The translations under genes were made by a program, and so were the position numbers. The notes under the pieces were generated by a model, which was given only the letters and a program-made list of their open reading frames with translations, ran no database searches and had not been told where the DNA came from. This document shows, piece after piece, positions 1,607 to 58,271 of a stretch of 64,000 nucleotides of DNA. How positions within the stretch are numbered: the first letter of the stretch is position 1; the number at the start of each line of letters is the position of its first letter. The DNA is from Mucilaginibacter mali. Its GTDB lineage: Bacteria; Bacteroidota; Bacteroidia; Sphingobacteriales; Sphingobacteriaceae. Location of the stretch: positions 1,736,001-1,800,000 of the forward strand of contig NZ_CP054139.1 in the NCBI RefSeq assembly GCF_013283875.1, in the 5' to 3' direction.

Positions 1607-3058
1607 TTAGCTCATCAATTTGATGATCCTTTTCAGATTGACGGTGAAGATAGCCAAGGCGCCCTGCATCTGCATATTTTCGATTCCGTAGGCTATTGCC
1701 CGGTCATAACCATGAGCATTTTTCAACTCGCTGTTCTTGGCTTCGATCTTATACCTGTGTTTGCTGCTTTGTTTATACTCGTCAGTTTCCTGAAATGCCA
1801 TTTGCTGTTGGTGCAGACCTGATTTAATGCTAACGGAATAGGTTTTGGTTTTGGCCCCAGGCTTATAGCAACCATCTCTCAATGGACATACCTTACACTT
1901 TTCAACATCAAAGTAATAAGTATCAACCTGATTCTCTCCGATATCCTTTTTACCCCCGCGCGCCTTCCGGATAGCCAGATGCCCGGCCGGGCAGACGAAC
2001 CGATCAGCATCTTTATTGTAATCAAACTTATTTTCATCTTTTCTGAAGCCCTGGGTGATCGACGGGTTGAGTTTAGCCACCAGTTTGATATCTTGTTCAT
2101 TTGTCATTTCAAGGTTCTCTTTCCCTGAATAAGCAGAATCCCCGATGATCGTTTTTACGTCAATGCCATTCTGCTGACTGATCTCCAAAAGCTTAGGGAG
2201 TTCCGGGCCATCGCCTTTTTCACCCGAGGTGACCACCGCTGCGGTAATGATGCGTTCTTCGGTCATCGCCAGATGGGTCTTATAGCCAAAGAAGGAGCTA
2301 TCAGCCGATTTATGGCCGGTTTTAGCATCCTTGTCTTTGGATAACGTATAGTGCTCCTGCGTGTCTGCTACCGTCTCCTTCAACAGGTTCAGCTTTTCTT
2401 TTACCGCAGGTATCTGGCTTAACGGCGGGTCGGCTTCAATATACTTTTCCAATGCACTGCAATAGGCAAGTTCTTTTTCCAGTTCATCCGTGGTGTTCTT
2501 TTCCGGCATCCCTGCCTTCATATCTTCATCTATGGCATACACCGCTTTGCGAAGCCGTTTCGAGCGCTCCCTTAATACTTCTAAGGCTGAATACGGATTT
2601 GATCTTGACAGGGAATGTGTAGCATCAACTGTAATGGACTTTGACCGGATGATCCCCTTTTCAATGGCGATGGTTACCGTTTTATTGATGAGCAGGTTTA
2701 ACAGATCGTTATCCTTCAGCCGAAGCTTTCTGAACTTGGTCAATGAGCTCGGATCGATAACCCCTTCCTCTGGAGACATCTCCAGAAAATATTTGAAGGA
2801 CATGTCATACTGCGAACGTTCCACCACATCTACATCTGAAACCGTATAGATCGTTTTCAACAGCAGATATTTGAACATCCGTACAGGGCTTTCGGCTGTC
2901 CGCCCATTGGTTGTGCAATATTTGCTGATCAATTCCTCGTAGATAAACGTAAAATCTATCAGGTCATTGATCTTCCGCAGAAGATTATCTTTCGGAACGA
3001 TCAGGTCATATAACCCTGAGTATGCACTGAACTGGATCTGCTGTTGCTGAATGAGCAT
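1607..3058 (-). CDS. IS1182-family transposase
   Basis: DDE transposase of 483 residues, full length for the family, that would cut and insert the surrounding element. The N-terminal part (about 40-120) is the DUF772 region (SPVRMFKYLLLK, FLEMSPEEGVIDPSSLTKFR). The catalytic core shows Asp in SITVDATHS, Asp in IIGDSAYSGKENLE and Glu in IEAKNSELKNAHG. A Cys-rich segment, CKVCPLRDGC, lies near residue 390. The frame is intact, so the element may be active. A hairpin (3062-3067 with 3076-3081) sits just before the ATG and overlaps the expected ribosome-binding region, which may limit expression. Incoming transcription is blocked by the terminator at 3091-3125. Confidence 0.93.
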   Translation of the reverse strand: MLIQQQQIQFSAYSGLYDLIVPKDNLLRKINDLIDFTFIYEELISKYCTTNGRTAESPVRMFKYLLLKTIYTVSDVDVVERSQYDMSFKYFLEMSPEEGVIDPSSLTKFRKLRLKDNDLLNLLINKTVTIAIEKGIIRSKSITVDATHSLSRSNPYSALEVLRERSKRLRKAVYAIDEDMKAGMPEKNTTDELEKELAYCSALEKYIEADPPLSQIPAVKEKLNLLKETVADTQEHYTLSKDKDAKTGHKSADSSFFGYKTHLAMTEERIITAAVVTSGEKGDGPELPKLLEISQQNGIDVKTIIGDSAYSGKENLEMTNEQDIKLVAKLNPSITQGFRKDENKFDYNKDADRFVCPAGHLAIRKARGGKKDIGENQVDTYYFDVEKCKVCPLRDGCYKPGAKTKTYSVSIKSGLHQQQMAFQETDEYKQSSKHRYKIEAKNSELKNAHGYDRAIAYGIENMQMQGALAIFTVNLKRIIKLMS

Positions 3059-3652: not shown

Positions 3653-4589
3653 TAATTAACTCAAGTTGCGGGTTAAAAGAAGGATAAAGAGTAAGCATCA
3701 AAAGTAAGAACTTTGGTTTACCACAACTAAAGGATACAATGATGCTTACCAAGGATAAAATTATAGGAATATTTTGTTTTATAGATGACCTGTTGAAAAC
3801 GAGCGGTCATCATGAAGATAGCCGCAGGCAGGTTAGTGATAGCGAGGTCATCACAACGGCGATAGTTAGTTCTTTATATTTTGGAGGGCACCAGGATAGG
3901 TCGCGGTGTTTTATGAAGATGATGAATTTCGTTCCCCGGATGCTGGACAAGAGCCGGTTCAACCGCAGGCTGCATGCACTGGCCGAATTGATCTGCAGTT
4001 TGTTCATGCAGATCGGCTGGTATTTTAAATATATCAGCTGTGAGATGAGTTACGTATTGGATTCGTTCCCAGTAGCGGTTTGTGATAATATCCGGATCAG
4101 TAATTGCAAACTGCTCCAAGGCAAACAATGGCGGGGTAAACAGAGCAGTATGCGAAGGTATTTTTATGGCATCAAGGTCCAACTGCTGGTCACTAAAGAC
4201 GGCATACCGGTAGAGTTCGGTTATGTACCGGGGAGTGAGAACGATTCGGTAAGCTTGAAGAAGTTACCGATGAACCTGCCTGCTGAAAGTGAGGTATTTG
4301 CAGATTCGGCCTATACCAACTATGAGATCGAAGACCAATTAATGGAGTGCGACCAGATCGCATTAAAAGTGCACCGTAAATCAAATGCAAAAAGAAAAGA
4401 CAGCGCAAGCGCTGCCTTTATTAAAGAATATATGCGTAAAAGGGTGGAGACCACGATCAGTGAGATCAAGGGCTTGTTCCTAAGGAAAATTCATGCCGTT
4501 ACTTTCAAAGGTTGGCTACTGAAGATCACCCTGTTTATCTTCGCTTTTACGCTAAATAAAATTGTATAACTAACAACTTGAGTTAATTA
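3653..4589. mobile_element. IS982-family insertion sequence
   Basis: The element spans about 3659-4583 (925 bp). Its ends are ACTCAAGTTG (3659-3668) and CAACTTGAGT (4574-4583), with a direct repeat TAATTA on each side (3653-3658 and 4584-4589) as the likely target duplication. One intact plus-strand transposase gene lies inside. TAATTA is itself palindromic, so the exact edges can move by a few bases. The right end is 21 bases from the start codon of the GS-like ligase. Confidence 0.85.
3739..4569 (+). CDS. IS982-family transposase
   Basis: 276-residue DDE transposase, full length for the family. Catalytic acids are visible in SYVLDSFPVAVCD, EVFADSAYTNYE and RVETTISEIKGLF. The N-terminal segment SDSEVITTAIVSSLYFGG is typical of IS982. 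The reading frame is unbroken, so the element may be mobile. ATG-ATG gives two equivalent starts three bases apart. It is co-directional with the ligase gene downstream and stops 42 bases before it, so read-through could contribute to ligase transcription; no terminator is visible between them. Confidence 0.92.
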   Translation: MMLTKDKIIGIFCFIDDLLKTSGHHEDSRRQVSDSEVITTAIVSSLYFGGHQDRSRCFMKMMNFVPRMLDKSRFNRRLHALAELICSLFMQIGWYFKYISCEMSYVLDSFPVAVCDNIRISNCKLLQGKQWRGKQSSMRRYFYGIKVQLLVTKDGIPVEFGYVPGSENDSVSLKKLPMNLPAESEVFADSAYTNYEIEDQLMECDQIALKVHRKSNAKRKDSASAAFIKEYMRKRVETTISEIKGLFLRKIHAVTFKGWLLKITLFIFAFTLNKIV

Positions 4590-4610: not shown

Positions 4611-5969
4611 ATGGATAAGCAACAGATAGAAGCCTGGATACAGGATAAGGATATACAAAAAATAAAATTCGCATTTGCCGATATCGACGGCGTACTGCGC
4701 GGTAAACTCATCAACAAGGAAAAGTTTTTAGGCGGATTAAAAGATGGCTATGGCTTTTGCGATGTGGTTTTCGGCTGGGATAGCGCCGATGCCTGCTACG
4801 ATAATGTGCAGGTGACCGGTTGGCATTCTGGCTACCCGGATAAGTACGCCCGTATCGATCTGTCGACCATGCGCAATATCCCATGGCAAAACGATCAGCC
4901 TTTTTTCCTGGCCGATTTTACCCAGCCCGATGGCAGCAGCGTGGCGGCCTGTCCGCGCAGCTTACTAAAACGCGTAGCTGCCGACTGCGAAGCGATGGGT
5001 TATCATCCCGAATTTGCCCAAGAGTTTGAATGGTTCAACTTTAACGAGACACCGCAAACGTTACAGGATAAGGAATTTACCAAGTTGCAGCCCATTTCGC
5101 CGGGCATGTTCGGATATTCCATACTCCGCCCATCACAGCACAGCGATTTTTATTACGATCTGTTTAACCTGTTAAAAGGCTTCGGCGTACCGCTGGAGGG
5201 CTTACATACCGAAACTGGTCCGGGGGTTTACGAAGCCGCCATAGCGCACGATCATGTTTTGGTTGCTGCCGATATGGCCGTTCTGTTCAAAACCGGCGTA
5301 AAGGAAATAGCATCCAAACACGGTATCACCGCCACCTTTATGGCCAAATGGAACGCCAACCTGCCGGGCTGTAGCGGGCATATCCATCAAAGCCTGTGGA
5401 ATAAGGATAAAAGCGAAAATCTGTTCTACGGCGCCAGTGATGCCAATAAGATGAGCGACCTGCATAAGCATTATCTCGCCGGGCAATTATACTGCCTGCC
5501 CCATGTCCTGCCCATGTATGCGCCAACAATCAACAGTTACAAACGATTAGTAGAAGGCGCCTGGGCACCAACCACCATCACCTGGGGCCTGGATAACCGT
5601 ACCACCGCCATCCGTGTAATTAACGATACGCCAAACCACACCCGCTTAGAAACCCGCATTCCTGGTTCGGATACCAACCCGTATTTAGCCATGTCGGCCG
5701 CGCTGGCTTCGGGACTATACGGCGTTAAACATAAACTGGAATTAAACATCCCGAACACCATCGGTAACGGTTACCAGGATAAAACGCATGGTCAGCTGGC
5801 TGCCAATTTGGAGGATGCAGCGACGGCCATGCAAAACTCAACAGTAGCCAAAGAACTGTTCGGCGATGATTTTGTACAGCATTTTACCAATACCCGCCTG
5901 TGGGAGTGGCGGCAGTTTATTAAGCAGGTGACGGATTGGGAGTTGAAGCGGTATTTCGAAATAATATAA
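4611..5969 (+). CDS. Glutamine-synthetase-family ligase (PuuA-like gamma-glutamylamide synthetase)
   Basis: 452-residue GS-fold ligase of the GSI-like branch that includes gamma-glutamylputrescine synthetase. Expected catalytic blocks are intact: metal ligands in FAQEFEWFNF (E138, E140), TETGPGVYEAA, the His block GCSGHIHQSL, the Arg block NSYKRLVEG, NRTTAIRV, and RLETRIPGSDTNPYL. It is clearly not the housekeeping enzyme, since glnII lies nearby, so it probably joins glutamate to an amine other than ammonia. The amine cannot be read. It appears to head a group with a kinase and a HAD hydrolase, interrupted by the GxxExxY element, and its upstream region has been altered by IS982. Confidence 0.85.
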   Translation: MDKQQIEAWIQDKDIQKIKFAFADIDGVLRGKLINKEKFLGGLKDGYGFCDVVFGWDSADACYDNVQVTGWHSGYPDKYARIDLSTMRNIPWQNDQPFFLADFTQPDGSSVAACPRSLLKRVAADCEAMGYHPEFAQEFEWFNFNETPQTLQDKEFTKLQPISPGMFGYSILRPSQHSDFYYDLFNLLKGFGVPLEGLHTETGPGVYEAAIAHDHVLVAADMAVLFKTGVKEIASKHGITATFMAKWNANLPGCSGHIHQSLWNKDKSENLFYGASDANKMSDLHKHYLAGQLYCLPHVLPMYAPTINSYKRLVEGAWAPTTITWGLDNRTTAIRVINDTPNHTRLETRIPGSDTNPYLAMSAALASGLYGVKHKLELNIPNTIGNGYQDKTHGQLAANLEDAATAMQNSTVAKELFGDDFVQHFTNTRLWEWRQFIKQVTDWELKRYFEII

Positions 5970-5980
5970 ATTGCGGTGAT

Positions 5981-6516
5981 GGTGGCAATTTAACCACAAA
6001 GGACGCGAAGATTTTTTTCACAAAGAGCACAAAGCTTTTATGACTGAACAAGAGATTTCTAACATTGTTATTGGATTAGGTATAGAAGTTCATAAAGCTT
6101 TGGGGCCAGGGTTATTGGAGAGTGCTTATAAAGAGTGCTTGTATTATAAGATATTAAAGTCAGGGTTGTATGCTGAAAAAGAAAAAGTGATGCCTTTGAT
6201 TTTTGAAGAAGTTAAATTAGACGTTGGTTATAGAATAGATATTTTAGTTGATAATAAACTCGTGATAGAAGTTAAAAGTGTTGAAGAATTGACCGACGTA
6301 CACATGGCACAAACACTTACTTATATGAAACTTGGGCAATATAAGTTGGGATTACTGATGAACTTTAACGTGATCAAATTAAAAGATGGTATAAAAAGAG
6401 TGATAAACGGCGCATTATAAATGTAGCTTTGTGCCTAAAATAAACCTTATAAAACTCGCAAAGCCTTTGTGTTCTTTGTGAAAAATCTTTGTGCCCTTTG
6501 TGGTTAATTTGCCACC
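5981..6516. mobile_element. GxxExxY gene between long terminal inverted repeats (putative mobile unit)
   Basis: Left end 5981-6038 and right end 6458-6516 are imperfect inverted repeats of about 58 bp. Both begin GGTGGCAA, continue TTAACCACAAAGG, then an AAGATTTTT and CACAAAG block, and end near CACAAAG-CTTT. The only gene inside is the GxxExxY protein. The right edge lies 18 bases before the start codon of the kinase gene, so the unit splits what looks like an operon. No convincing target duplication was seen. The same TTAACCACA(A)AG end motif bounds gene-free palindromes at 18187-18378 and 56768-56882. Confidence 0.65.
6040..6420 (+). CDS. GxxExxY protein, PD-(D/E)XK nuclease-like
   Basis: 126 residues, the usual size of the family. 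The naming motif is GLLESAY (G24, E27, Y30). A nuclease-like core follows: Asp in GYRIDILVD (D67), then VIEVKS (E77, K79), which fits the D...ExK arrangement of PD-(D/E)XK enzymes. No substrate or host role is established for the family as far as I know. The gene fills the space between two long inverted repeats and its ATG begins directly at the left repeat. Its coding sequence is more AT-rich than the neighbours (for example the run from 6160 to 6270), in line with a separate origin. A link between the nuclease and the repeats is inference. Confidence 0.85.
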   Translation: MTEQEISNIVIGLGIEVHKALGPGLLESAYKECLYYKILKSGLYAEKEKVMPLIFEEVKLDVGYRIDILVDNKLVIEVKSVEELTDVHMAQTLTYMKLGQYKLGLLMNFNVIKLKDGIKRVINGAL

Positions 6517-6534
6517 AAGGAAAAAAATGAGCGA

Positions 6535-7572
6535 ATGGACTACGATAATATCATAAAAAAAGCCTGGGAAGGATACGACGCCTCTAAAACCATCAAGAAG
6601 ATAGAGGATATCAGCGCGATGGTTTCTACCAACCATGTGTTCAGGATTACTTTTGATGACGACGACATCATCATTGCCAAGCTATCAAACTTTGGTAAGT
6701 ACGAGTATTTTAAGGAAGATCACCGCATCATCCATAGCTTATCTAACAACCTGCTTTACCCGTTCGAGAATCTGCTGGCTAAATCGCTGCTGAAGAATAA
6801 CCGGGTATATGTTTACCGCCACAAACAGGCGGGCGAGGAAGCATGGGTGGTGTTTTACAATCCTACCCGCATTATGGACAGGTTGCCGCGACGTTTGGGC
6901 GAAGAGCATATCAAGCGCTTCGGGCAGCAGATCGGGAAGTTTCATAAAGCCTGCGCTAAGTTGCGGCATGTGCTGCCTAAGTCATCCAAAACCTTGCGGA
7001 CGGATATTAATGCCTTGCTGCAGCAGATCGATCAAAATGAGCAGAGCTTCGGCTCGCGCATGCAGGCTGATTACCTGAAGTATCATTGCGAGCAATTCAT
7101 TAAAAACCGTACGAAGTATAATGTAAACACGTTCGAGATCATCCCCGTGTTTATCGACTGGAACATCGGCAACTTCTCGGTAACTAATAAGCAGGAGTTA
7201 TATTCGCGCTGGGATTACGATTGGTTCAGGATGAGCTACCGCATGCTGGATTTCTACTTTTTCAGCAGGGTGGTGTCCGACGCCGGCGACCGTACGGTGT
7301 TCAGTTACCGTATCGACCCGATGAACGAGCCGCGGTTTATCCTGTTTCTGCAGGAGTATCACAAAGTGAACCCTATAAAAGCCGATGAATTACGCTTTTT
7401 AAAGGAAGTATACCGGTTTTTTATCCTAAATTATGTGATTAAAGACGGTAAGTACTTTTTTAACGACCAGTACGCTGATAAGCTACAAGCCGAAGCTTAT
7501 GATATTTACCTGCCATCGGTTGATCGGGATTTTAACGCCGATTTGTTGATAGACGCTTTAAAAATTAAATAA
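6535..7572 (+). CDS. Phosphotransferase, aminoglycoside/choline-kinase (APH) fold
   Basis: 345-residue soluble protein of the APH-like kinase fold. A degenerate N-lobe with IIIAKLSNFGKYEYF (possible ATP-site Lys) is followed by the catalytic loop FIDWNIGNFSV, in which Asp and Asn fit the HxDxxxxN pattern with the His replaced, and RWDYDWFRM as the metal-binding DxD. The substrate is unknown. ATG at 6535 follows AAGGA at 6517-6521, which lies just beyond the GxxExxY unit, so the ribosome site was kept. An ATG at 6527 is out of frame and stops at once. The gene stands 3 bases before the HAD gene and is probably co-transcribed with it and with the GS-like ligase. Confidence 0.8.
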   Translation: MDYDNIIKKAWEGYDASKTIKKIEDISAMVSTNHVFRITFDDDDIIIAKLSNFGKYEYFKEDHRIIHSLSNNLLYPFENLLAKSLLKNNRVYVYRHKQAGEEAWVVFYNPTRIMDRLPRRLGEEHIKRFGQQIGKFHKACAKLRHVLPKSSKTLRTDINALLQQIDQNEQSFGSRMQADYLKYHCEQFIKNRTKYNVNTFEIIPVFIDWNIGNFSVTNKQELYSRWDYDWFRMSYRMLDFYFFSRVVSDAGDRTVFSYRIDPMNEPRFILFLQEYHKVNPIKADELRFLKEVYRFFILNYVIKDGKYFFNDQYADKLQAEAYDIYLPSVDRDFNADLLIDALKIK

Positions 7573-18165: not shown

Positions 18166-18169
18166 ATTA

Positions 18170-18408
18170 ACTTAAGTTGCGGGTTATTTAACCACAAAGT
18201 GCACAAAGATTTGCAAAATCGATTGACACAAAGGTCACAAAGAGCAAATCAATCAGCAGATTTAAGTTTTTTTAAGGGCAACAAAGCTTTGTGGTCTCTC
18301 TTTTTCTTTTGATTATCAAAGCCTCTGTGAACTTTGTGCTTCAACATCGGGCATATCTTTGTGCGCTTTGTGGTTAAATCGTCTGTTTTGTTAACCCGCA
18401 ACTTGGGT
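18170..18408. mobile_element. Gene-free 239-bp element with IS982-like ends (putative MITE)
   Basis: The left end ACTTAAGTTGCGGGTTA (18170-18186) and the right end, whose reverse complement reads ACCCAAGTTGCGGGTTAA (18391-18408), match the left end of the IS982 element at 3659 (ACTCAAGTTGCGGGTTAA) with one or two differences. No transposase or other ORF lies inside. The flanks TTATTA and TAATTA resemble the TAATTA duplication of the full IS. This fits a non-autonomous derivative that the IS982 transposase could move. Confidence 0.7.
18187..18378. repeat. TTAACCACAAAG palindrome nested in the MITE (family E, no gene)
   Basis: TTTAACCACAAAG plus TGCACAAAGAT (18187-18210) is mirrored by ATCTTTGTGCGC and TTTGTGGTTAAA (18355-18378), with more CACAAAG and CTTTGTG words between. 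The arms match the ends of the GxxExxY unit at 5981-6516, but no coding frame lies inside. Confidence 0.65.
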
Positions 18409-18427
18409 TAATTAACTAATCACTAAC

Positions 18428-56737: not shown

Positions 56738-56767
56738 GATTTTTTTAACCGGCTTATAGTAGTAGAT

Positions 56768-56882
56768 TTTTAACCACAGAAAAAAACACAGAGTACACAG
56801 CGTTTTCTTGTTTAGCTATCTGGTTAAAAATAACAAAACGCTGTGTACTCTGTGTTTTTTTCTCTGTGTCTTTGTGGTTAAA
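56768..56882. repeat. TTAACCACAGAAA palindrome (family E, no gene)
   Basis: The left arm 56768-56806 (TTTAACCACAG, then ACACAGAGTACACAGCGTTT) pairs with 56835-56882 (AAACGCTGTGTACTCTGTGT ... CTTTGTGGTTAAA). The inner 22 bases are perfect and an 11-base word CTCTGTGTCTT is extra in the right arm. The end motif is that of the GxxExxY unit at 5981-6516. No ORF lies inside. Confidence 0.65.
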
Positions 56883-56888
56883 TCACCA

Positions 56889-58271
56889 CTAAACCCCAGC
56901 CATCTCCCACACCAAATCCAGCTTCTTAGCCGGGTAACGTTCTACATGGGCCAGCACCAGGTTGCGGATATAACCATTATCAGGGTAGGGTAAAAGAAGC
57001 GCTTTCAGCGCTTCGAAATTATCTACCTGGAAATCGTTGGTGATATAGCCCATGCCGTAAAAGCGGCCGTTCTCTATCAGCATACAGCTTTGCTCATCGT
57101 AGTTGCGGCCTTTATCGCGCAGGGCAAAGGTAGGCAGCTGCTCCTTTAAGCTGTTGATGGCGTTATCCACCTTTTGATTGTAGGCTTCGGCGTCCTCCAC
57201 ACCCTCGCAGGCGCATTGTTCCTTCAGGCTGCCGGTGCAGGTATCATTATTTTTTTGGATGAAGCATAGCTTGGGGCATAACTCAAACTCTTCTATCAAC
57301 TGGTTAAGGATACCGTAACCTTCCAAAAGCGATTTGCAGTTATGCACGGCATCGGCATATTTGCGGTGCTTATCCACCGCCAGGCGCAGGTAGCCGCGCT
57401 GATCTTTATAGGTATACAGGCCAAAGCGATGCTCAAAGCGTTTAAGCGAGCGGTTGTATTTTGGCCACAAGCGTTTGATCTCTACCGCTTCCATCGCCAG
57501 CGACATCAGTTCGGTTCCGCATTCCTGGTAGGTAATGTGGTGGATATTGCGCAAAAACTCCTGCCGTTGCTGGTTAGGATTATTCCCGCTGAAATGGCTG
57601 CGTACCCGTTTTTTAATGTTTACGGCCTTGCCTACGTAAATCACCTTACCCTTTTGATCGTGAAAATAATATACGCCCGGCATCAGCGGCAGCGATTCAA
57701 TTACGTTTTTAGGCAAATGCGGCGGCAGGTTCTGCTCCTTGCTGTTGTGTTTAAGCGATGCCAGGATATGCTTATTGGTATCGCTGCGCAACAGCAAGCC
57801 AAACAACTCTGCGGTAGCATCGGCATCGCCCCCCGCGCGGTGGCGACTGGCATTGGCGATACCTAAATGATGGCACAATTTGCCCAAACTATAGGAGGGC
57901 AGCCCCGGCAATATTTTACGCCCAAGGCGAACGGTACAAAGCTTATTGCAGTTGAGATCATACCCCGAAGCCGACAGGTGATAGCGCAGGAAAGAATAAT
58001 CAAAATTGACATTATGCGCCACGAAGATCTTATCATGCAGTAACTGGTAAATCTCGTGCGCCACTTGCCCAAAGTAGGGGGCACCCTGCACCATCTCATT
58101 ACTAATGCCGGTTAGGGCACGTATATAAACCGGGATGTCACGCCCGGGATTAACCAACGTTTCGTAGCGGTGCGTAACCTGCATACCATCATGAATACAG
58201 ATAGCCACCTCGGTTATTCCGTTGGCGCTGGCGTGGCCGCCGGTGGTCTCTATATCTACAATCGCGTACAT
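56889..58271 (-). CDS. DnaQ-like exonuclease fused to a UvrC-like GIY-YIG nuclease domain
   Basis: About 460 residues from ATG 58271. The N-terminal DEDDh exonuclease (1-170) has AIVDIETTGG, AHNVNFDYSFL and HRAGGDADATAEL. A GIY-YIG domain follows (about 195-275): GVYYFHDQKGKVIYVGKA, IKKRVRSHFSG and a Glu in MAMEAVEIKRLWP-type context (SLAMEAVEIKRLW). The last 180 residues resemble the UvrC/Cho middle part, including LCPKLCFIQKN with Cys residues. Such fusions are known in several bacterial phyla and are thought to act in DNA repair. A Mg-dependent incision activity is inferred. Confidence 0.88.
   Translation of the reverse strand: MYAIVDIETTGGHASANGITEVAICIHDGMQVTHRYETLVNPGRDIPVYIRALTGISNEMVQGAPYFGQVAHEIYQLLHDKIFVAHNVNFDYSFLRYHLSASGYDLNCNKLCTVRLGRKILPGLPSYSLGKLCHHLGIANASRHRAGGDADATAELFGLLLRSDTNKHILASLKHNSKEQNLPPHLPKNVIESLPLMPGVYYFHDQKGKVIYVGKAVNIKKRVRSHFSGNNPNQQRQEFLRNIHHITYQECGTELMSLAMEAVEIKRLWPKYNRSLKRFEHRFGLYTYKDQRGYLRLAVDKHRKYADAVHNCKSLLEGYGILNQLIEEFELCPKLCFIQKNNDTCTGSLKEQCACEGVEDAEAYNQKVDNAINSLKEQLPTFALRDKGRNYDEQSCMLIENGRFYGMGYITNDFQVDNFEALKALLLPYPDNGYIRNLVLAHVERYPAKKLDLVWEMAGV

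Follow-up and report, generated by a model that had tools for sequence, protein, structure and literature searches.

The question raised by this locus is whether a small GxxExxY gene, enclosed by long inverted repeats in the genome of Mucilaginibacter mali, is the gene-bearing form of a mobile unit, and whether its product acts on the repeats that surround it. The window, i.e., the whole 64-kb stretch of DNA that was analysed, contains the unit (gene plus flanking inverted arms) at 5980..6517 on the + strand, as delimited by ORF and repeat analysis. The left arm (5980..6039, + strand) starts with the outer end TGGTGGCAATTT, followed by the anchor AACC and by CACAAAG/CGCGAAG cores spaced ~9 nt; the right arm (6460..6517, - strand), identified by repeat analysis, is the left arm inverted. 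The outer arm segments (5980-6016/6481-6517) are 37 nt long with 89% identity, the inner ones (6014-6039/6460-6485) 26 nt long with 88% identity, and both pairs together form a single ~58-nt inverted pair. An earlier note on this DNA had described the GxxExxY gene as standing alone between long inverted repeats, and this is borne out by the ORF list and by the ~58-nt pair: the ORF at 6040..6420 (+ strand), coding for 126 aa, is the sole ORF of at least 80 aa inside the arms, and no DDE transposase was found in the unit by ORF list and Pfam. The upstream neighbour belongs to the glutamine synthetase family (4611..5969, + strand; PF00120), and the downstream one is a co-directional ORF without Pfam match (6535..7572, + strand; ORF list and Pfam), whose ATG lies 17 bases from the right arm, in agreement with the former description of a unit that stops just short of the next start. 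The same note had the unit splitting a ligase-kinase pair; the co-directional arrangement and the glutamine-synthetase family member stand, but "kinase" is that note's label only, because the ORF 6535-7572 has no Pfam match. Further upstream, two different IS-type DDE transposase genes (1607-3058 and 3739-4569) have flanking inverted repeats with scores of 36 and 32, respectively. A known RNA family was rejected as a candidate, since no Rfam family matched in the window at gathering scores.

The unit's protein was assigned to the PD-(D/E)XK nuclease family (E27, D67, E77, K79) from profiles, alignment and AlphaFold2. It scores 130.2 bits with TIGR04256 GxxExxY (cut-off 35) and 126.2 bits with PF13366 PDDEXK_3 (cut-off 22), which is its sole Pfam match. 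The D67/E77/K79 PD-(D/E)XK-like core that had been proposed holds: an alignment of 121 sequences shows all three residues to be invariant, together with H18, G22, G24, E27, Q91, Y95 and N108, and both the D-x9-E-x-K core and the predicted fold are features of the superfamily. Purifying selection on the protein is strong, with a median dN/dS of 0.049 over the 27 close pairs, out of 87, for which dS could be estimated. The AlphaFold2 model (mean pLDDT 95.3) is nearest to Cas4 SSO0001 (4ic1; Z 10.1, 4.5 Å over 103 residues), followed by the restriction-like protein 3ijm (Z 8.3), CinB/CidB, Hjc, another Cas4 and lambda-type exonucleases; the comparison covers the families on the fold lists, a Z under 8 may reflect merely a common arrangement, and Foldseek E-values were weak (best 5e-3). 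A Cas4 profile also matched weakly (E 0.0049), and searching PDB sequences with the family profile returned no match at E <= 1. The predicted fold would thus be a nuclease fold, silent on function. A defence gene was considered and rejected, since the best PADLOC match for the three proteins of the Mucilaginibacter mali genome reached only E 0.0049 and the PHROGs matches were weak and of unknown function. GxxExxY is present in 152 of 296 sampled Bacteroidota genomes (about half) and in 80/100 genomes of the genus of Mucilaginibacter mali. The literature search, with subscription papers and preprints outside its range, returned no paper on the role of GxxExxY, and no title or abstract among the matches listed describes the element.

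The repeat ends of the unit are dispersed in the genome. TTAACCACAAAG has 183 sites in 6.04 Mb (94 forward, 89 reverse), and its reversed control has 0 forward and 0 reverse. The window holds five sites, all exact (one mismatch allowed; 0.53 expected): two at the gene-bearing unit, two at 18186-18379 and one at the 56760-56891 palindrome. These last loci are the two gene-free palindromes that had been reported to share the unit's repeat ends, and they were found as described. The one at 18186..18379 (motif and repeat search; no strand) has TTAACCACAAAG at both ends; the other (near 56760..56891; no strand) has CACAGAG/CACAAAG-type cores, with TTAACCACAAAG at one end and the variant TTAACCACAGAA at the other. 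The palindrome 18186-18379 also sits inside outer inverted repeats (18166-18186, ATTAACTTAAGTTGCGGGTTA; 18392-18412, TAACCCGCAACTTGGGTTAAT), as if it had been inserted into the loop of an older hairpin. The pairing figure was taken from the first 100 TTAACCACAAAG sites listed, 74 of which make 37 facing pairs; 36 of these pairs are spaced 75-212 nt, with no room for a gene, while the window's own is spaced 506 nt. Twenty-one palindromes, mostly fetched as listed pairs, were read out and none is within an ORF; the 20 that were classed occupy 10 tandem, 7 divergent and 3 convergent gene gaps. The palindromes being paired and outside ORFs, the gene-bearing unit is one of a large, otherwise gene-free palindrome family.

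The previous claim that the unit lacks a target duplication was confirmed and extended, as none was found above shuffled pairings in 32 palindromes of the genome (k = 2-9; at k = 5, 4 observed against a shuffled maximum of 4). DDE transposition was rejected for the unit, which contains no DDE transposase gene and shows no target duplication. The outer end GGCAA before TTAACC was discarded as a mark of all genome copies, occurring at 10/42 half-sites of 21 pattern-selected palindromes; it is found in 0/12 orthologous elements and at one other GxxExxY locus (L113), and the figure of 39/72 for this end is biased, since most of the loci counted had been retrieved through their likeness to the window arm, and overlapping ones were included.

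Inverted arms around GxxExxY genes in general were evaluated by comparing the best inverted repeat between the 300-nt flanks with 30 dinucleotide shuffles. The Bacteroidota set included high-scoring family members at 123 loci (3 of this genome, 30 of the genus, 30 of the phylum and 60 picked from listed places); one locus was dropped for a short flank, leaving 122. All 30 shuffles were beaten by 104/122 genes, the other 18/122 having no arms above shuffles, and a score of 32 was reached by 87/122 and by no shuffle; direct flanking repeats with score >=32 occurred in 22/122, several deriving from tandem gene copies. The 122 loci fall in 60 locus clusters and therefore are not all independent. 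As controls, 5/52 genes of the window beat the shuffles, with score 32 in three of them, i.e., two IS transposase genes and the GxxExxY gene, and 9/135 neighbouring ORFs of the same loci did so, with 3 reaching score 32. In a set of named genomes from many phyla (best 80 of 582 loci, 5 dropped for short flanks), 60 of the 75 testable loci beat all shuffles and 15/75 had no arms above them; score 32 was reached by 43/75, but also by one shuffle maximum, and direct repeats reached it in 18/75. The check suggested by the earlier note, namely paired inverted repeats at other GxxExxY genes, thus came out positive against the neighbouring ORFs. Scores of at least 32 occur in 12 hand-labelled groups (proteobacterial classes merged), including Acidobacteria, Chloroflexi, Cyanobacteria, Planctomycetota, Verrucomicrobia and one of two archaeal contigs; these records are mostly metagenome bins with possible misassigned contigs, and the arms of L267/L245 and of L301/L086 are nearly identical by eye despite different labels. 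Large direct repeats (scores 283-908) flank L055, L060, L061, L084 and L103, which suggests tandem copies of the element.

A tblastn search with the relative L088 (E <= 1e-5) matched none of 50,697 phage records and eight out of 72,556 from plasmids. Phage or plasmid cargo is therefore unlikely, also considering that two of the four regions opened contain housekeeping genes (radA; fabD-fabG). Among the regions from the plasmid collection, Bacteroides finegoldii and Gemmatirosa have clear paired arms with the same grammar, while the arms of Treponema and Sphingomonas are not above shuffles. In Sphingomonas parapaucimobilis (L313), the GxxExxY gene lies between fabD and fabG, and a CGCGAAG array immediately precedes the start codon, but a matching right arm is missing.

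The arms have a common grammar and not a common sequence. By eye, they comprise a T-rich edge, an anchor AACC/ACC and ~3-5 core copies separated by gaps of 2-4 nt; autocorrelation of 72 arms gives a peak at 9 nt (z 9.7), with 8 and 10 raised too. The core varies by lineage (CACAGAG, TGATT, GAATT), and the collected GxxExxY elements have a median length of 529 nt. The Mucilaginibacter mali genome itself has three GxxExxY genes, each with its own arm sequence; one set of arms is of CAG type, and the other two are of GAATT type. The TTAACCACAAAG ends, on which the first description was based, are therefore the ends of this lineage but not of the family, being one version of a variable repeated core. 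The anchor was rejected as a regular supplier of the neighbour's stop codon, which it provides in only 11/104 and 6/35 anchor-bearing arm sides. A similar organization surrounds genes of the four-helix-bundle family TIGR02436 of the same phylum, the S23p family of intervening sequences: 27/38 loci beat shuffles and 16/38 reach score 32 (the 38 include two fragments of a single gene), and 21 arms peak at 7 and 14 nt (z 11.5 and 13.7). The sequence of these 7-nt-period arms (L042-L049, L170-L199) varies from gene to gene. In Geobacter metallireducens, paired dispersed motifs with tandem heptanucleotide sites were read by the source as putative global-regulator sites (PMC2700814); judging from that account, they may be the ends of such elements.

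Core and protein vary together. Motif counts assigned the 104 armed elements to CAG type (48), GATT type (32), GAATT type (17) and mixed (7). The nearest protein at a locus without detected shared flank has the same core in 81/96 classed elements, against 36.5 on average and at most 54 in 500 shuffles. CAG proteins have a median identity of 37-38% with the other classes, while GATT proteins do not separate from GAATT ones (median identity 59% between classes); CAG and GATT/GAATT cores thus match two protein clades, and part of the co-inheritance therefore reflects one old split. These sequence comparisons indicate that core and protein are inherited as a pair. At the level of whole genomes, the half-sites TTAACCACARAG and TCTGAACCNNGATT were counted together in 100 genomes of the genus, including Mucilaginibacter mali. 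Their number correlates with the number of genes (rho 0.57; 0.54 with genome size removed, kinship being included in both), while the reversed form of the first half-site pattern gives rho -0.02; the first pattern itself has 1041 sites, over a background of 129 for its reversed control. The medians are 18.5 half-sites in genomes with the gene and 4.5 in those without, and exact TTAACCACARAG half-sites range from 0 to 240 per genome inside this one genus. Three of the 20 gene-less genomes (G013, G042 and G047, the last 63% complete) have 28-83 half-sites, so that either copies outlast the gene or another agent makes them.

The two arms also appear to evolve in step. In 91/101 pairs of orthologous elements, the arms within an element resemble each other more than an arm resembles its counterpart in the other species, a result favoured by the choice of elements with score >=32; with no score threshold and a generous between-species score, the same was found in 121/150 pairs. 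The effect rises with divergence, from 1/10 pairs above 90% protein identity to 23/23 at 60-70%. Pairing is therefore kept while the sequence changes. Mismatches between arms on the gene strand comprise 71 G.U and 92 A.C (69 elements, p 0.12); given the lack of a G.U excess, the force is more likely to act at the DNA level, by conversion between the arms, by inversion or through a single protein that recognises them, than on RNA pairing.

Occupancy was compared at the window's own glutamine-synthetase site, with flank identity computed over 450 + 400 nt and genome collections holding one genome per species. Forty-one loci were read, five of them repeats of the same place, giving 21 distinct loci with a GxxExxY hit and 15 without. 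The other occupied loci bear 10 window-like proteins (69-79% identical), nine of another subfamily (30-38%) and one shorter protein (52%); the 15 unoccupied loci have gaps of 3 to 335 nt, several with apparent arm remnants, so that loss and absence are not always separable. Close relatives differ in occupancy: L207 has the element (gap 509) and L201 a gap of 23, with flanks 92% identical; L222 (element, gap 509) and L203 (gap 39) have flanks 93% identical; L226 and L227 differ likewise, with flanks 92% identical, and the element apparently fills the few bases between stop and start. L228 and L229, with flanks 93% identical, have elements of different subfamilies. L201 and L203 contain apparent remnants of another element, with CAG-like arms, which implies that some "empty" sites are decayed and that gain and loss cannot be ordered in every case. 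The proposed comparison of orthologous sites with and without the unit also came out positive, element-free forms being found in close relatives, although some of them resemble remnants.

Nine proteins of the sample share 70% identity or more with that of the window, and seven of them occupy the window's own site; inheritance is therefore largely vertical and movement slow. On the other hand, 218 protein pairs of at least 70% identity (90 elements, 44 locus clusters) have no detected shared flank; the flanks being just 1-1.5 kb, some of these pairs may be the same place after rearrangement. The pairs also bear on copying into the same site, as in homing: the same site is occupied in many species, yet no shared flanks were detected for the 218 pairs. 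At a second site, the orientation of the element differs among 13 loci (7 against 6), with no conflict in 72 comparisons. The possible mobile unit of the earlier note thus gains support from dispersal and from site comparison, the patterns from which mobility is deduced.

Taken together, we consider it probable (about 0.6) that the unit belongs to a family of small mobile palindromes as the member that carries the gene, and that its PD-(D/E)XK nuclease would act on the arms. Under this reading, the nuclease would most likely bind the ~9-nt cores of both inverted arms and then cut or process the DNA there; cutting would let the element copy to new intergenic places with no target duplication, perhaps, as a guess, via a hairpin or double-strand break repair. 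The gene-free copies, keeping the arms alone, would be non-autonomous derivatives served in trans. We infer the spread of the palindromes from dispersal and site comparison, and it would be the GxxExxY protein itself that recognises the arms, cuts there and causes the spread.

Three other explanations were weighed against this one. The nuclease could be a resident, domesticated enzyme serving the host, with the dispersed palindromes as its operators, terminators or targets and not as mobile DNA. The low dN/dS and the frequent inheritance at the same site would fit such a role, as would the paired dispersed motifs of Geobacter metallireducens, taken as global-regulator sites in the source (PMC2700814); but near relatives carry different subfamilies or nothing at one site, the 13 loci of the second site have both orientations, and the number of exact TTAACCACARAG half-sites is widely variable in one genus, so that a resident enzyme is judged unlikely. 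Somewhat less credit is given to an RNA-level intervening sequence, in which the arms would pair in the transcript and RNase III would excise the hairpin from the operon mRNA, the nuclease gene being a passenger. Here 80/90 classed elements do lie between co-directional genes, an excess that is modest since 39/51 gene pairs of the window are also co-directional; moreover, four-helix-bundle genes of the same phylum have a like architecture with period-7 arms, and the 23S rRNA intervening sequence of Coxiella carries an ORF in a 28-bp terminal stem, according to PMC4990558. RNA pairing should however yield an excess of G.U over A.C, which is missing; gene-free copies are also found between divergent genes (7/20 classed), and the catalytic residues are invariant.

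A third explanation, that another transposase moves the palindromes and the nuclease gene rides along, is considered very improbable. IS transposase genes do lie 1.4-4.4 kb from the unit, the genome has seven Y1_Tnp genes, four with strong inverted flanks of other sequence, and G013, G042 and G047 are rich in sites but devoid of the gene. The 1.5-kb flanks of all seven Y1_Tnp genes are, however, devoid of CACARAG-type sites, which also makes RAYT-driven REPs unlikely, and one would not expect a passenger to retain a given core alongside a given protein lineage at loci that are unrelated, or to show the same arm grammar in many phyla. As to the Y1_Tnp genes themselves, three lack notable inverted flanks, while the other four (L337-L340) are flanked by inverted repeats of other sequence with scores of 70-136, and are perhaps the genome's own RAYT/REP systems.

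Returning to the mobile palindromes with an arm-directed nuclease, a wider proposal is advanced tentatively, with slightly less than an even chance: an undescribed class of mobile elements, in many bacterial phyla and in at least one archaeal contig, in which a Cas4-like PD-(D/E)XK nuclease, as the sole protein, would read arrays of ~9-nt cores in two inverted arms, the lineage-specific cores would change in step in both arms, and a parallel four-helix-bundle (S23p) class would use 7-nt cores. The combination of dispersed palindromes and a nuclease dedicated to them is already known; a PD-(D/E)XK-type fold is not known as the lone palindrome-mobilising enzyme. A MITE with a minisatellite, reportedly found in Porphyromonas gingivalis in a published study, is a possible relative. 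If the proposal is true, cryptic palindromes of short period in bacterial genomes would represent the termini of two parallel classes of elements. A link between GxxExxY and dispersed palindromes would account for the protein as well as for one class of intergenic repeats. Should the protein be shown to move its arms, it would define a new element class; the lineage-specific cores offer a ready-made specificity series.

Comparison with known systems places the unit as follows. With Cas4 and lambda-exonuclease-like PD-(D/E)XK nucleases it shares the nearest solved folds (4ic1, as above), but the GxxExxY protein is merely 126 aa long and has no sequence relative in the PDB at the threshold used. 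Like IS elements and MITEs, it has one gene within terminal inverted repeats and shorter gene-free forms; unlike them, it lacks a DDE transposase and a target duplication, and its ends are variable and lineage-specific. The small ORF between terminal inverted repeats recalls the 23S rRNA intervening sequences with an S23p ORF, such as the 428-nt one of Coxiella (PMC4990558); however, the protein family is unrelated, the unit lies between protein genes, the period is 9 instead of 7, and there is no G.U bias. REPIN/RAYT systems, by the account in PMC3116915, consist of dispersed, mostly extragenic pairs of inverted short repeats, with the enzyme gene flanked by the same repeat; in genomes with several enzyme genes, each of these is distinct and single-copy, and the enzyme phylogeny largely follows the species at short range. 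The unit resembles them in its dispersed paired repeats shared with the gene flanks, in having few distinct enzyme genes, each with its own repeat, and in largely vertical inheritance at short range; it differs in that the enzyme is PD-(D/E)XK and not Y1/HUH, the Y1_Tnp genes lying elsewhere in the genome, and in its arms, which are arrays of few cores spaced ~9 nt. The unit is therefore a GxxExxY/PD-(D/E)XK member, and neither a REPIN/RAYT, a DDE element nor a 23S intervening sequence; as far as anatomy can say, it would work like REPIN/RAYT, and the best reading is that of a REPIN/RAYT-like mobile palindrome system in which a PD-(D/E)XK nuclease would replace the HUH transposase.
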